A stretch of DNA of 56,421 nt, taken from the NCBI GenBank assembly GCA_003647275.1, contig QMMN01000012.1, forward strand, positions 1 through 56,421, in the 5' to 3' direction. Origin of the DNA: Deltaproteobacteria bacterium. GTDB taxonomy: Bacteria; Desulfobacterota; Desulfobacteria; Desulfobacterales; C00003060. Made by a program: the position numbers and the translations under genes. The notes beneath the pieces are model-generated. The model ran no database searches, had not been told where the DNA came from, and saw nothing but the letters and a program-made list of their open reading frames with translations. Positions 1 through 31,230 of the stretch are shown piece by piece; position 1 is the first letter of the stretch, and every line of letters starts with the position of its first letter.

Positions 1-1
1 A

Positions 2-136
2 CCCCAGCTTCCGCCCAGCATTGAAGAGGCAGCAAAGCAGCTGGGCGTTGAAGTCGATTATGCCAGCTTCCTGGGCAAGGCCGGTGACATGGTCGAAACA
101 GACAAACCCGGCGTTGTCCTGGCCCAGAATGTATGA
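2..136 (+). CDS. C-terminal end of an unidentified protein (partial)
   Basis: An open frame enters from the left edge and gives 44 codons before a TGA at 134-136. The visible tail is hydrophilic with alternating acidic and hydrophobic residues and has no cysteines, membrane segments or motif that I recognise. It ends 14 bases before the ATG of the next gene, on the same strand, so the two are probably cotranscribed. Because the next gene encodes a DsrK/HdrD-like electron carrier, a redox partner is a reasonable guess, but the sequence in the window does not prove it. Confidence 0.6.
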   Translation, partial: PQLPPSIEEAAKQLGVEVDYASFLGKAGDMVETDKPGVVLAQNV

Positions 137-150
137 AATAGGAGGATTTG

Positions 151-1491
151 ATGGAAGCTTTAGATCTAACCAAACGACCAAAGAGCAAGTTGGCACTTCA
201 GCCCGAATGGGCAGATGTGTGTTATACCTGCGGCACTTGTGCCAGTGGTTGCCCGGTGACTGGCGTGGACGGCTGGGACCCCAGAAAGGCGGTCCGCGCC
301 GCGCTCCTGGGCCTGGAACAGGAGTTGGTTGATTCCCGTTGGCCCTGGATCTGTACGGTGTGTGGGCGCTGTGAGTACATGTGTCCCCAGGGGGTTAAAT
401 TGAATTCCCTCATAAGGTATGCACGTACGCTCCGTGAGCGCGACAAGGTCCCCGGTGTTCTCCACAAAGGTGTGGCCATGTGCATGGAAAAGGGGAACAA
501 CCTTGGTATTCCCGAATTCGACTACCTCTTTCTCCTGGCTGATCTGAGCAAGGAAATGGAAGAAGGAACCGTTGAGGGACACCACGGTGAGGAATATCCT
601 GCCTACCCGGGATTTTATGTGCCGGTGGACAAAGAAGGGGCCAACATTATTGTCACCATCAACTCCAAAGAACCCATGGGCGAGCCAGAGGACATGATGT
701 TCTGGTGGCGGATCTTTTATGCGGCCAAGGAGAACTGGACCGTGCCCAAGCAGAACTGGGAAGGGGTTAACTGGGGGCTCTTCACCGGTGATGATGATGC
801 ATTGAAAGAACAGTGCCGCCGGATTATTGAGAATGCCAGAAAGGTAGGCGCCAAGACAATCCTATATCCGGAATGAGGCCACGCCTATTATGCGACCCGG
901 TTGGGTTTCACGAAATATTTTCCAGAGGTTTACGACGAGTTCAGGTGCGTGAGTGTTTTTGAACTATTAAAAGAATACATTGAAACGGGCAGGATCAAGC
1001 TTGATAAGTCCAGGTTTGAGGGAAAGAAAATAACCATCCACGATCCTTGCAACTATCACAGGAAATCATGGATGTCCTTCGGGCAGCACTTCCTGGATGA
1101 ATGCCGCTGGGTAACCGCTCAGTGCGGCCCAGAGATTGTGGAAATGGAGCCCCACGGACTGAATGCCATCTGCTGCGGGGCAGGCGGCGGGGCCTGGGCT
1201 GCTCCTTATGAGAGAGAACGGTTGGACTACGGCAAGTGGAAGGCAGACCAGATCAAGGCGACAGGTGCCGATCTGATATGCGCCCCCTGCCACAACTGCC
1301 GGGACCAGATCATGAAGGCCCTCACCAAGGAGTACGATCTTCCCCAAAGGACCTATTACATCTGGGAGTTGGTATCAGACTGTGTCATCTTCGAGCCGTG
1401 GAGTGAGGAAGAGGTCAAGAAGTCCCACGAAGAACGAGATAAGCAATACGAAAGGGACGGCGTCGAGTTAGAAGAAGAGGAGGAATACTAG
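151..1491 (+). CDS. DsrK/HdrD-like Fe-S oxidoreductase, probable selenoprotein (UGA = Sec242)
   Basis: Reading starts at ATG 151, five bases after AGGAGG (140-145). The frame runs to a TAG at 1489-1491 with one internal TGA at 874-876, giving 446 residues if it is read as selenocysteine. Residues 24-35 (CYTCGTCASGCP) and 68-79 (CTVCGRCEYMCP) are two 4Fe-4S ferredoxin-like motifs. The second half is a CCG domain: Cys300 in DPCNYH, Cys341-Cys342 in CCGAGGG, and Cys377 and Cys380. This arrangement is known from HdrD, DsrK and GlpC proteins, which bind a non-cubane Fe-S centre for disulfide chemistry. The TGA falls in YPE-U-GHAYYA, where relatives carry Cys in a PECGHA-type motif. Similarity continues without a break or frame change on both sides, and a small hairpin with a G-start loop follows at a suitable distance. 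A nonsense mutation is the alternative. The protein is probably cytoplasmic and linked to other Hdr-type carriers. Confidence 0.82.
895..906 (+). promoter_or_regulatory. Candidate bacterial SECIS hairpin
   Basis: Downstream of the in-frame UGA (874-876) the sequence ACCC-GGTT-GGGT can fold into a four-base-pair stem with the loop GGUU. The loop begins 22 nucleotides after the UGA and starts with G, which agrees with the known bacterial SECIS rule of a short hairpin with a guanine at the start of its apical loop, roughly 16-37 nucleotides from the UGA. The stem is short and I see no clear extension, so this is a candidate that fits and not proof. Confidence 0.5.
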
Positions 1492-1528
1492 ACCAGAGCT
1501 CCTGGCTATTTGCGAATAGAGAAAAAGT

Positions 1529-1562
1529 AAAAGGGATGCTGAATTTTTTCGGCATCCCTTTT
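1529..1562. terminator. Bidirectional intrinsic terminator between convergent genes
   Basis: An 11-base-pair stem (AAAAGGGATGC paired with GCATCCCTTTT) with a 12-base loop is followed by T residues on the plus strand, and the A run before it gives T residues on the minus strand. It lies 37 bases after the selenoprotein stop and 34 bases before the stop of the convergent flavoprotein gene, so it can serve both. Confidence 0.85.
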
Positions 1563-1595
1563 TTGTTTGTCTGAAAGAGCCCACAGTTCACAGTT

Positions 1596-2438
1596 TCAAT
1601 ATTCTTTTGGCAGGGTGTTGAGCTTGGCCAGGGTAAAGACGGGCCCATCCTTGCACACATACTCTGGACCTATATTGCACCGTCCGCACATGCCGATGCC
1701 ACATTTCATGCGGTTTTCCAAAGACATGATGATGGCTTCAGGAGGAAATCCGACCTTCTCCAGCACAGGCTGCGTAAACTTGATCATGATGGGTGGACCG
1801 CAAATAATCGCCACGCTGTTTTCGGCACTGGTAATTTTTTTCTCGGTGATACTTGGCACAAAACCGATGTGGTACTGGCAGAAGGGATCGTCGCTGCAGT
1901 CCACGGTGATATGCATGTGAATGTCGCTACGCCCCCGCCAGGCCGCGAGCTCATCTTTGTAAAGAAGCATCCCTTCATTTCTCGCGCCGTAGACCACGGA
2001 GATCTCTCCAAAACGCTTGCGGTTTTCTGGGGCTAGCAGGTAAACGATGGTCGAGCGAAGAGTGGTAAAGGCAAAACCGCCGCCGATAACAACCACGTTC
2101 TTTCCTTCCATCTCATCAAGGGGGTAACTGTTACCAAGGGGACCGCGCACGCCTAGAATCCCCCCCTCCTCCATGTTGTGCAAATGGGTGGTCACAACAC
2201 CCGCCTTATTCACTGTAAAAAGGAGAAAGCCAGACTCTGTTGGAGAAGAAGCAATCCCAATGGGGCATTCCCCTTTACCTGCCACTGAGAGTTCGGCAAA
2301 CTGACCGGGGCGGTATTGAAACCGCTTTTCATCTTCAGGGTCCAAGAAGGCTACCCTGAAGGTCTTTATATTGCGGTCTTCAGTTTCGATGGTAATCTTT
2401 TCGATACGGACAGGATAGGGAAGATACGGGTTTTCCAC
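1596..2438 (-). CDS. FAD/NAD(P)-binding oxidoreductase subunit (sulfhydrogenase gamma / AsrB / FlxA type)
   Basis: The start chosen is GTG at 2438, preceded by AAGGAGT; codons further upstream read into a palindromic repeat and are unlikely to be translated. The protein has 280 residues, typical of the family. An N-terminal ferredoxin-reductase-like FAD domain shows YRPGQFAEL and the SSP motif, the NAD(P) domain shows VVVIGGGFAF at about residues 130-140, and the C-terminus has four cysteines in CGIGMCGRC and VCKDG that bind a 2Fe-2S cluster. Such subunits pass electrons between NAD(P)H and an Fe-S partner. The natural partner is the Fe-S protein at 3888-4928. Here the two are separated by a DNA methyltransferase gene, which is unusual. 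Confidence 0.85.
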   Translation of the reverse strand: MENPYLPYPVRIEKITIETEDRNIKTFRVAFLDPEDEKRFQYRPGQFAELSVAGKGECPIGIASSPTESGFLLFTVNKAGVVTTHLHNMEEGGILGVRGPLGNSYPLDEMEGKNVVVIGGGFAFTTLRSTIVYLLAPENRKRFGEISVVYGARNEGMLLYKDELAAWRGRSDIHMHITVDCSDDPFCQYHIGFVPSITEKKITSAENSVAIICGPPIMIKFTQPVLEKVGFPPEAIIMSLENRMKCGIGMCGRCNIGPEYVCKDGPVFTLAKLNTLPKEY

Positions 2439-2460
2439 AAAGTGACTCCTTTTTTGAGAC

Positions 2461-2482
2461 TCCCTGCAGCAAGCTGCAGGGA
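2461..2482. repeat. 22-bp palindrome of the CTCCCTGCAGC repeat family
   Basis: TCCCTGCAGC and GCTGCAGGGA flank a two-base centre, a perfect inverted repeat. It lies 23 bases upstream of the GTG of the flavoprotein gene, in its leader. The same core recurs at 5003-5112 and, altered, at 18806-18880. Confidence 0.8.
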
Positions 2483-2511
2483 ATGTGCTTAGTACCGACG
2501 CGCAGCGCCAA

Positions 2512-3822
2512 TTACGGATCACTTTCATGCTTCATCTTTGATTTTGCGGATAAAGCAACAAACTTACTTTTCATCTTGTAATTCGATACTGTATCCACCT
2601 CAACCAATGCTTTTTTAACCAGGTGAGCATTAACAAAAGTTTTATTTTTTAAGTAGAGGTAACATAATAGATTGTCATTTTCTTCATGCTTCATCTCATC
2701 AAATTTTAGGAATACCTTCTGTCCCTTGGTTAGATTTTCTATAAACTGAACAGCTTCTGTATTGTTTTTGCCATTTGCTTTTACTCCAACAAGATTCACA
2801 TGGGCTCCTGTGTCTAACAATATCTCTGATGGAGAGATGACCTTTTTAACTGAATAGTATCTCTCTTTATGCTTCTCTTTTTCATCTATTCGGGAACCAA
2901 ACCTTAAGGTTTTTGGGTCAATTTTACGGTTAAAGGACACCGGATCCTTGAAAGTGTAAGGTAAATCCTGGATCTCTCGGTCAAAGTCTATGTGGTCTCT
3001 TTTCTGGTTAATGATCTCAATTTTCTCCTTTTTCTTAAAAAGTCCTATATTCTCCATTAATCTTTTCTTGATGGCAAATAAATACTCCGAATTGATCTCA
3101 TACCCTATGGAATTCCTGGACAGTTTAAGCGCCGCAACAGATGTTGTTCCGCTTCCAAGGAATGGATCTAGGACTGTATCTCCAACAAAGCTAAACATCT
3201 TAATTAATCTTTTAGGTAGCTCTTCTGGAAAGGGAGCTATATGTTTACCCTGTTTTTCCCCACTAAAACTCCAGTGCCCATAAAAGTATCGGTTCCATTC
3301 ATCTTTAGAAAGTCGTGATTGTTCTTTTATTTCTTTTCTTACCTTAGGGGATTTTCCTAATTTCTTGAAAATCAGGATGAATTCGTAGTCTAACTTAATA
3401 ATTCCATTTCTTGGATAAGGGAAGGAACCCATCACGGTTGCGCCCCCTGTTGTATTGCAAGTCGTCACCTTCTGCCAGATAATTGCACCCATATAATCAA
3501 AACCAATCGTTTCGCAGAACTTAATAATTTCTGTGCGAATAGGAATGATTTTGTATCTACCGTAGTAAACAGAACGAGCAAACTGATCGCCGATGTTGAT
3601 ACAGAGTCGACACCCCTTATGAAGAATACGATGGCACTCCTTCCAAACGACGTTTAGATTGTTGATATAATCCTCATAAGTATCATTATAACCGATTTGC
3701 TCTTTTGGACCGTAATCTTTCAGTTGCCAGTATGGAGGAGAAGTAATAATTAAGTGCACAGATTCGTCCTCCACCTCTTTCATCCTTCTTGAATCGCCAA
3801 TGATTATCTTATGCCAACCCAT
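2512..3822 (-). CDS. Orphan DNA methyltransferase with a degenerate SNase-like C-terminal domain
   Basis: ATG 3822 (MGWHKIII) is chosen because AAGGA lies seven bases upstream. The product has 436 residues. Motif IV TSPPYW is at residues 27-32 and motif I, DPFLGSGTT, near residue 218, the order expected for beta-class N4-cytosine or N6-adenine DNA methyltransferases (DNA methylase N-4/N-6 family). About residues 320-430 resemble the staphylococcal nuclease fold (matching stretches near AHVNLVGVKANG, EAVQFIENL and FVNAHLVKKAL). The acidic and arginine residues of the nuclease active site appear replaced: DGDT by SPSE, RL by NL, and the later YGR by DNL. The domain is therefore probably a binding module, not an enzyme. 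No restriction gene adjoins it. The gene is visibly richer in A and T than its neighbours and sits between two electron-transfer subunits, which suggests transfer into the locus. Confidence 0.82.
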   Translation of the reverse strand: MGWHKIIIGDSRRMKEVEDESVHLIITSPPYWQLKDYGPKEQIGYNDTYEDYINNLNVVWKECHRILHKGCRLCINIGDQFARSVYYGRYKIIPIRTEIIKFCETIGFDYMGAIIWQKVTTCNTTGGATVMGSFPYPRNGIIKLDYEFILIFKKLGKSPKVRKEIKEQSRLSKDEWNRYFYGHWSFSGEKQGKHIAPFPEELPKRLIKMFSFVGDTVLDPFLGSGTTSVAALKLSRNSIGYEINSEYLFAIKKRLMENIGLFKKKEKIEIINQKRDHIDFDREIQDLPYTFKDPVSFNRKIDPKTLRFGSRIDEKEKHKERYYSVKKVISPSEILLDTGAHVNLVGVKANGKNNTEAVQFIENLTKGQKVFLKFDEMKHEENDNLLCYLYLKNKTFVNAHLVKKALVEVDTVSNYKMKSKFVALSAKSKMKHESDP

Positions 3823-3887
3823 ATCTTGATCCTTCTCTTTGATGTGGTTACAGGCATCAACGTCCCCACATCCTAACAATCCGCAAC

Positions 3888-4928
3888 TCAACGCTTGCAC
3901 TCATTCATCATCCGGCAAACTTCACGGATATCAATATTGACCGGGCAGTGCTGCACACAGCGTCCACACCCCACACAGGCCACACCATTCTTATACTTGT
4001 CTACATAATATTTCAGCTTGTGCATGAAACGCTGGCGCACTCGATGGATCTTTTGCCCCCTGGGATTATGTCCTGATGCATGCAGGGTGAAGAGGGGGAA
4101 CATGCAGGAATCCCAGTTGCGAATCCGAATGCCAGCACGCCCATAGGTCTCATCTTGGATGTCAAAACACCAGCAGGTAGGACAAAGATAGGTGCAAACC
4201 CCGCAGTTGATGCAGGCAAAATGTACCTCTTCCCAGAAGTCGGCCTCATAAAGGGCAAGGGTGTCAAGGTCGGCGAGTCTGGAGGTATCGACCCTTGAAA
4301 TGGTCTTCGCTTCGGCTCTTTTCTGAATGGCCAAAGCCTTTTCAATGAAGTTTTCTTCAGTATCTTCGAAGGCTTCCGCAGTCTGAAAGAGGGACGTCCC
4401 TTTTTGTGTGAGGATCTTGGCTAAAAAGGCCTCGCCAGTGTCCGTCAAAAGCACGTCCAGTCCTGTCTCATCAAAGGGCCCCCCTCCCACGGAGGTGCAA
4501 AAACAGGTGGAACAGGGTGCGGTGCATCCCAGGCCCACCAGGGTGGTCGCCTCCCGAGCCCTCACCCACCATGGGTCGCGAAACCTTGGTGTATCAAAGT
4601 TTACATCCACCAGCTTAAAGGCCCTTGCATCACAAGGCCGGATCCCGATGACAGCGCGGGGCGAATCGTCTTTTGGCACCTCATTGAGGATATATGCGTC
4701 ATCTCTGGCAGGGTCCAGACTATACTCAAACATTCGATCGGATTGGGGAAGAAACAGAAACTTGGGAGAAAGACGGCTGTTTTGGAAAGAAAGATCTATC
4801 TGAGAGGCATCCTGGATCGGCATGAAATGGATGATATCTCCCTGCCGCACCGGACCATAGAGCCGATAGGAAGCCTTGAGGCTGTTCAAAAAAGCAGAAA
4901 AACGTCCTTTCGCAATCTTTCGTTTCAT
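3888..4928 (-). CDS. 4Fe-4S dicluster subunit (sulfhydrogenase beta / AsrA / FlxB type)
   Basis: The 346-residue protein starts at ATG 4928 after AAGGT. Its C-terminal half has two ferredoxin motifs, CINCGVCTYLCPTC at about residue 238 and CVGCGRCVQHCP near 325, so it can hold two 4Fe-4S clusters. A central CTAPCSTCFC gives further cysteines. GIRPCDARAF is typical of the family that includes the AsrA subunit of anaerobic sulfite reductase, archaeal sulfhydrogenase beta subunits and proteins of flavin oxidoreductase (Flx) complexes. Such proteins carry electrons between a flavoprotein and a catalytic or Hdr subunit. The flavoprotein at 1596-2438 is the likely partner and is on the same strand, with the methyltransferase gene between them. 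The exact complex cannot be named from sequence alone. Confidence 0.85.
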   Translation of the reverse strand: MKRKIAKGRFSAFLNSLKASYRLYGPVRQGDIIHFMPIQDASQIDLSFQNSRLSPKFLFLPQSDRMFEYSLDPARDDAYILNEVPKDDSPRAVIGIRPCDARAFKLVDVNFDTPRFRDPWWVRAREATTLVGLGCTAPCSTCFCTSVGGGPFDETGLDVLLTDTGEAFLAKILTQKGTSLFQTAEAFEDTEENFIEKALAIQKRAEAKTISRVDTSRLADLDTLALYEADFWEEVHFACINCGVCTYLCPTCWCFDIQDETYGRAGIRIRNWDSCMFPLFTLHASGHNPRGQKIHRVRQRFMHKLKYYVDKYKNGVACVGCGRCVQHCPVNIDIREVCRMMNECKR

Positions 4929-30801: not shown

Positions 30802-31230
30802 TCATACTCTAGCCCTCGTTTTGATCAGATGTTTGGCCGGACCCAGGGCCTTCACCTTGTCGTTTACCATGTTGGCCATATCCACAAACTTGGTCGCCTC
30901 TGAAGAAGAAATCCAGGAAAACCAAAGTCGCCCTGGTTCGATCCCGATATGTTCCAGAAAGTTTTTCAGCAGAGCAAATTTTCTCCGAGCATAATAATTA
31001 CCCTCCAGGTAATGACACTCCCCGGGGTGGCATCCAGAGACCCACACCCCGTCAGCCCCGTGACGAAAGGCATTCAGGATAAACTTGGGGCTCATGCGGC
31101 CCGTACAGGGGATGCGGATGACCCGGATATTGGATGGATAGGCCAGCCTGCTCACACCCGCCAGATCAGCAGCGCTGTAACTGCACCAGTTGCAGAGAAA
31201 GGCAATAATCTTGGGCTCCCATCCCTTCAT
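30802..31230 (-). CDS. mvhD: MvhD/FlpD-type Fe-S protein
   Basis: This 142-residue protein matches the delta subunit of methyl viologen-reducing hydrogenase. It has FLCNWCSYSAADLAG at the N-terminus, IPCTGRMSP near residue 40 and GCHPGECHYLEGN near 67, giving five cysteines for a 2Fe-2S cluster. In methanogens and sulfate reducers this protein joins HdrA to an electron donor. It begins 14 bases after the HdrA stop, as in many hdrA-mvhD operons. In some relatives one of these cysteines is selenocysteine; here all are normal codons. Confidence 0.92.
   Translation of the reverse strand: MKGWEPKIIAFLCNWCSYSAADLAGVSRLAYPSNIRVIRIPCTGRMSPKFILNAFRHGADGVWVSGCHPGECHYLEGNYYARRKFALLKNFLEHIGIEPGRLWFSWISSSEATKFVDMANMVNDKVKALGPAKHLIKTRARV

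Follow-up and report, generated by a model that had tools for sequence, protein, structure and literature searches.

Organization of the locus

The window analyzed here, a stretch of 56,421 nucleotides that forms contig C12 of a 3.0-Mb assembly (172 contigs, 96% complete), opens with the 3′ end of an HdrA-like gene fragment (hdrX), followed by the gene of interest (Table 1). The frame of this gene runs from the ATG at 151 to a TAG at 1489 to 1491, and its sole in-frame stop is a TGA at 874 to 876 (codon 242), located in the motif YPE-U-GHAYYA. The open frame with a lone TGA described in the first-pass annotation was thus confirmed from the sequence and its open reading frames (ORFs). The truncated hdrX gene ends in the same residues as its counterparts in two related loci, L052 (4486 to 5370) and L054 (5063 to 5950).

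Table 1. Features at the start of the window
Feature	Position	Strand	Basis or remark
3′ end of hdrX (HdrA-like fragment)	2..136	+	Truncated by contig start; ends ...VLAQNV-stop
Shine-Dalgarno-like AGGAGG	140..145	+	Sequence; ahead of ATG 151
Predicted selenoprotein gene, HdrD-like/GlpC-type Fe-S oxidoreductase, 446 aa, Sec242	151..1491	+	
HdrC-like part, two [4Fe-4S] motifs (C24 C27 C30 C34 and C68 C71 C74 C78)	220..384	+	Pfam Fer4_8
UGA codon, predicted selenocysteine, residue 242	874..876	+	Alignment with relatives
His244 codon of the U-G-H motif	880..882	+	Counterpart of EtfD His583 in the alignment; kept in all Sec-type proteins
SECIS-like hairpin, apical loop GGUU at 899-902	891..910	+	Fold; two-sided changes; synonymous recoding test
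Arg250 codon CGG, carries the GG of the loop	898..900	+	XGG in 115/116 Sec-type genes with Arg here
CCG domain, five noncubane-cluster cysteines (C300, C341, C342, C380, C383)	1030..1311	+	Pfam CCG; conservation; EtfD-ligand alignment
Terminator-like inverted repeat GGGATGC...GCATCCC, then T run	1531..1567	+	Read directly from the sequence

Pfam domains lie on both sides of the TGA, a 4Fe-4S dicluster domain at residues 21 to 82 and a CCG domain at residues 294 to 387, and they belong to a single frame, as the first-pass annotation had claimed for the family motifs. The curated models of HmcF, TmcB, and DsrK likewise span both halves in frame. Standard ORF calling would split this gene in two, i.e., a 242-residue protein starting at TTG 148 and a 196-residue CCG protein starting at TTG 901. 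Compared with L052, which encodes a 91% identical protein, the window differs at the first, second, and third codon positions by 12, 8, and 63 nucleotides before the TGA and by 15, 11, and 49 behind it. Third-position differences also predominate on either side of the TGA when L053 and L054 are compared along with L052. Given this concentration at third codon positions, the region 3′ of the TGA is under selection at the protein level.

Membership in the GlpC selenoprotein family

The product, hereafter called the UGH protein, is a soluble fusion of HdrC-like and HdrB-like parts. It had been annotated as DsrK/HdrD-like, and while the distant kinship stands, the DsrK identity does not, since the protein scores 125 bits against a cut-off of 400 (NCBIfam NF045796) and the true DsrK of this genome is found on contig C51 with 751 bits. 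That DsrK carries ECGH at the Sec position, hence a cysteine where the UGH protein has selenocysteine (Sec). Scores also fell far below the cut-offs for HmcF (181.7 bits versus 750, NF045711) and TmcB (146.5 bits versus 735, NF045724), and both identities were rejected. DsrK, HmcF, and TmcB share the domain order of the UGH protein, but in sulfate reducers they are membrane-complex subunits. Assignment to HdrD or HdrB with two noncubane clusters was rejected as well, the protein having one CCG domain, with the first set of ligands reduced to position 242 (Sec).

The Fe-S oxidoreductase (GlpC) has been known as a selenoprotein family since 2006, with a glpC-hdrA-frhD-frhG-frhA operon in Syntrophobacter (PMC1794560), and a 2026 review lists it with the motif UGH (PMC13188914). 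Our protein has in common with the GlpC family (COG0247, PTHR43551) the UGH motif, an Fe-S/CCG architecture with Sec, and an association with hdrA and frhD/mvhD in Deltaproteobacteria (PMC1794560, PMC13188914). U-G-H was present in all Sec-type relatives of this COG0247-type protein, and the expected operon genes were found in the related loci (hdrA and mvhD in L052 and L054, mvhD in L053) and on another contig of the same genome, C52. The operons differ in that hdrA-mvhD-gltD-like-hdrX precede the UGH gene here, compared to glpC-hdrA-frhD-frhG-frhA in the known case. This family assignment relies on the UGH motif, the CCG and 4Fe-4S domains, and the operon genes; the reference protein of the family is WP_174406253.1. 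In addition, the HdrD4 of Desulfobacterium autotrophicum HRM2 contains Sec (PMC2702500) and, going by its description, is a similar HdrC and HdrB fusion devoid of a membrane part, in a host with Sec-type HdrA and MvhD. The gene is therefore not of a new kind, as its family dates from 2006, its motif is listed, and HdrD4 has been reported. What is new here is a codon-level test of the SECIS, a history of the Sec/Cys exchange, and the mapping of Sec onto a vacated cluster site.

Codons found at the UGA position in relatives

The TGA had been noted to sit at the place of a conserved cysteine, and Cys-type relatives indeed carry TGC or TGT at that column. The aligned codon was TGA in 110/110 loci of a first set of relatives (46 to 100% identity). 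A wider set comprised 142 UGA and 28 Cys codons (26 TGC and 2 TGT) and no other codon, although these counts are unusable as frequencies because Cys-type loci were fetched on purpose. Without duplicates, 126 Sec-type and 26 Cys-type distinct sequences remained, the former originating from many independent assemblies as well as closed chromosomes and extending to about 35% identity.

The relatives conserve the cysteines of both cubane clusters and of one CCG site, all eight cysteines of the HdrC-like part being kept in every relative that covers them, and the PE-U-GH flanks of the UGA are nearly invariant. Residue 244 is His in 142/142 Sec-type rows, compared to 12 His and 16 Gly in the Cys-type rows. 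Among DCGG-type sequences, in which residue 244 is Gly, no case of Sec was seen. The Sec/Cys label has to change seven times over a 153-row tree, with at least five changes forced by well-supported branches, and the residue has therefore probably switched several times. Since SelA was present in 35/35 genomes tested, Sec-type and Cys-type alike, this switching does not follow the loss of the machinery. Some relatives contain two or three TGAs, and the extra ones were considered as second Sec sites but rejected, as none of those in the loci examined lies before position 413, which places them close to the end of the gene or outside it. A search of viral contigs for relatives returned none.

A conserved hairpin downstream of the UGA

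The hairpin reported behind the UGA is present, with a predicted stem pairing 894 to 898 with 903 to 907 around the GGUU loop and an extension pairing 891 to 892 with 909 to 910. When a single sequence was folded, it was not stronger than in shuffled controls (z between −0.6 and +1.3), and an Rfam scan of positions 1 to 3000 with E values up to 10 found no SECIS family, the weak matches being far below gathering scores. The hairpin thus stands out only across relatives. Changes on one side of its stem are matched on the other, as in GACCA-GGCU-UGGUC and GACUA-GGCU-UAGUC, and the Sec-type genes show C-G in 103 cases and U-A in 23 at one stem pair and G-C in 76 and A-U in 31 at the outer pair. 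Codon choice at Arg250 is restricted in the same genes to AGG (71), CGG (44), and CGT (1), whereas eleven other conserved Arg positions are spread over all six codons.

We then resampled codons 247 to 255 synonymously from the usage of each gene. The natural hairpin ranked within the best 5% of resamples for 107/125 Sec-type genes versus 1/26 Cys-type genes, with an energy of −8.8 kcal/mol versus −3.8 kcal/mol under synonymous recoding. Folding across relatives thus points to a conserved downstream hairpin under constraint at the RNA level. Judged from these comparisons, a 3′ hairpin with G in its apical loop is under selection, which is what a SECIS function predicts.

Selenocysteine machinery in the genome

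The window contains no selA to selD genes, but these were found elsewhere in the genome, so that an absence of machinery does not speak against Sec. SelA is encoded on contig C16 (543 bits), SelD on C27 (397 bits), with its own in-frame UGA at the usual place in VRASG-U-AAKL, and tRNA-Sec on C46 (75 bits), for which ARAGORN gives the anticodon TCA. A second tRNA-Sec match, on C57, was rejected as a tRNA-Trp. Two SelB genes scored above the cut-off, one on C30 and one on C82. Both are full length and clearly different from each other (C30:23107-24999, L002, 391 bits; C82:184-2079, L003, 287 bits); each may be dedicated to a SECIS type of its own, or one of them may be a contaminant, contamination being estimated at 3.5%.

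Operon context in close relatives

In near relatives, the UGH gene is the last of an operon with the order hdrA-mvhD(Sec)-gltD-like-hdrX-UGH gene. L052 comprises hdrA, an mvhD carrying CCTW-U-GY, a GltD/NfnB-like NAD(P)H-binding flavoprotein gene, hdrX, and the UGH gene; in L054, the arrangement is identical, and the UGH gene is followed by an HdrB gene in convergent orientation and by a membrane Hdr gene. The mvhD-gltD-like-hdrX-UGH gene order is shared by L052, L053, and L054; L052 and L054 additionally have hdrA at the front. No hydrogenase genes were seen among the ORFs read in L052 and L054. The window starts at a point corresponding to L052 position 5242. At the end of contig C52 lie hdrA and mvhD(Sec), with 87% identity to the corresponding part of L052. 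C52 is therefore probably the upstream neighbor of the window contig, and we infer that about 2.7 kb are missing between the two.

A Cys-type cluster is found on contig C38 of the same genome, with a paralogue carrying PDCGGGS, hdrA, and an mvhD with CCNWC. Within the same genus, a PDCGGGS Cys-type gene lies beside hdrX, in the position of the UGH gene, in genomes G041 (L146 and L203) and G130 (L145). In G041, gltD is also beside the PDCGGGS gene, and the operon mvhD keeps its Sec. Sec at the UGH position is thus not essential to a complex of this type, and the genus provides a natural pair of Sec-type and Cys-type genes at one operon position for comparison. Within the window, a separate ORF at 30841 to 31209 (minus strand) encodes an FlpD/MvhD domain without a TGA and has an hdrA match beside it.

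Predicted fold and placement of Sec242

A cluster-free AlphaFold model built from 48 relatives had a mean pLDDT of 90. Its best PDB match was EtfD (Z score of 25.2, root mean square deviation of 4.3, 392 residues), and residues 164 to 415 of the model matched HdrB (Z score of 18 to 20). A profile alignment to EtfD places Sec242 at Cys581, His244 at His583, and Ala245 at Cys584, and it matches C300, C341, C342, C380, and C383 with Cys637, Cys672, Cys673, Cys709, and Cys712. In EtfD, the latter five cysteines and His583 are the ligands of a noncubane [4Fe-4S] cluster, whereas Cys503, Cys538, Cys581, and Cys584 are the ligands of a linear [3Fe-4S] cluster (PMC13083937). HdrB carries two noncubane clusters, with Cys81 and Cys234 as bridging residues (PMC13083937).

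The UGH protein thus shares the five noncubane cysteines and the His with EtfD of Mycobacterium smegmatis (9OJN), which additionally has a membrane part and the linear cluster, of whose ligands the UGH protein keeps only position 242, as Sec. With the HdrB of methanogens (5ODC, 8RVU), it shares the fold of residues 164 to 415 and the C-terminal CCG site, but it has the residues for one noncubane cluster instead of two. According to this ligand mapping, the second HdrB/EtfD cluster appears to be lost here except for a single ligand position, now occupied by Sec. A word search of the open-access literature found no papers dealing with a Sec that faces a noncubane cluster, or is bound to one, in the UGH family. 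For this uncharacterized selenoprotein family, the mapping provides an active-site hypothesis that can be tested.

Interpretation and alternative readings

Sec at UGA 874 to 876 is supported by the machinery, by the Cys homologues at its column, and by the conserved hairpin. The explanation that we favor, with a probability of roughly 0.85, is that the UGA would be decoded as Sec242 through the SECIS-like hairpin directly behind it by SelA, SelB, tRNA-Sec, and SelD of the same genome, in a member of the known GlpC UGH family that presumably acts as a disulfide-facing subunit. The UGH protein would then be the catalytic subunit of a soluble complex whose partners may be HdrA, the Sec-type MvhD, and the NAD(P)H-binding GltD-like flavoprotein. 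The two cubane clusters of the HdrC-like part would relay electrons to the CCG domain and its single noncubane [4Fe-4S] cluster, which Sec242 would face from the otherwise lost second cluster site of HdrB. In a disulfide/thiol reaction, the selenium could provide the selenenyl-sulfide half, the other sulfur being held by the cluster, and His244 may be a cluster ligand or an acid-base group. That the active site consists of Sec and one noncubane cluster splitting a disulfide, or alternatively has the selenium as a ligand of that cluster, is a tentative proposal with the odds somewhat against it. If the former is true, evolution would have stripped HdrB of one noncubane cluster out of two and installed a selenol at a former ligand position, and a disulfide would be cleaved by one cluster and a selenium atom rather than by a pair of clusters. 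Such a selenoprotein would place the stop-codon recoding in a subunit close to energy metabolism in bacteria of the sulfate-reducer type.

The alternative that survives best accepts Sec but denies it a catalytic selenol, the UGH protein being an EtfD-like electron-transfer selenoprotein in which His244 caps the noncubane cluster and Sec242 is structural or a cluster ligand. EtfD is the closest solved fold, and its His583, with which the invariant His244 of Sec-type proteins aligns, renders the noncubane cluster noncatalytic (PMC13083937), so that an electron-transfer subunit with a noncatalytic Sec is conceivable. However, EtfD keeps four cysteines for its second cluster, whereas non-Cys residues occupy three of these positions here, which leaves Sec242 without an evident second cluster to ligate. 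Sec in other proteins also mostly replaces a redox-active Cys (PMC1794560), and we regard this alternative as rather unlikely.

The UGA could otherwise be a regulated stop. The main product would then be an N-terminal electron carrier of 241 residues, full-length protein being scarce or absent, or a second protein would be initiated at TTG 901. Bacterial Sec insertion is usually incomplete, which would suit such a role, and the TTG start would provide the 196-residue CCG protein. Nevertheless, the UGA is exchanged only for Cys, the near invariance of PE-U-GH across the gap would be needless in a split gene, and the predicted fold forms one HdrB unit over residues 164 to 415, making a regulated stop very improbable.

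We give hardly any credence to a general recoding of UGA, as Trp (code 4) or another residue: a frame left open under TGA as Trp would look identical, but the column holds UGA or Cys and never Trp, the genome has a complete Sec machinery, and the upstream gene of the window stops at TGA 134 to 136, as do its relatives. An equally negligible chance is left for a nonsense mutation or a sequencing or assembly error in a Cys gene, which the single base separating TGA from TGC or TGT and the metagenome-type assembly might suggest but which is refuted by the conservation of the TGA in all 126 distinct sequences from independent genomes and contradicted by the selection acting on the codons behind it.

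Other genes in the window

On the minus strand, an ORF at 2512 to 3900 encodes a 462-residue DNA methyltransferase-like protein with a TSPPYW motif recognized by eye. It is flanked by AsrB/HydG-like (1596 to 2528, minus strand) and AsrA/HydB-like (3888 to 4928, minus strand) ORFs and looks inserted between these partner genes, as their counterparts in L053 are only about 200 bp apart. Further along the same strand, at about 10.8 to 16 kb, the translations of several ORFs resemble membrane proteins of the multisubunit antiporter/complex I type.
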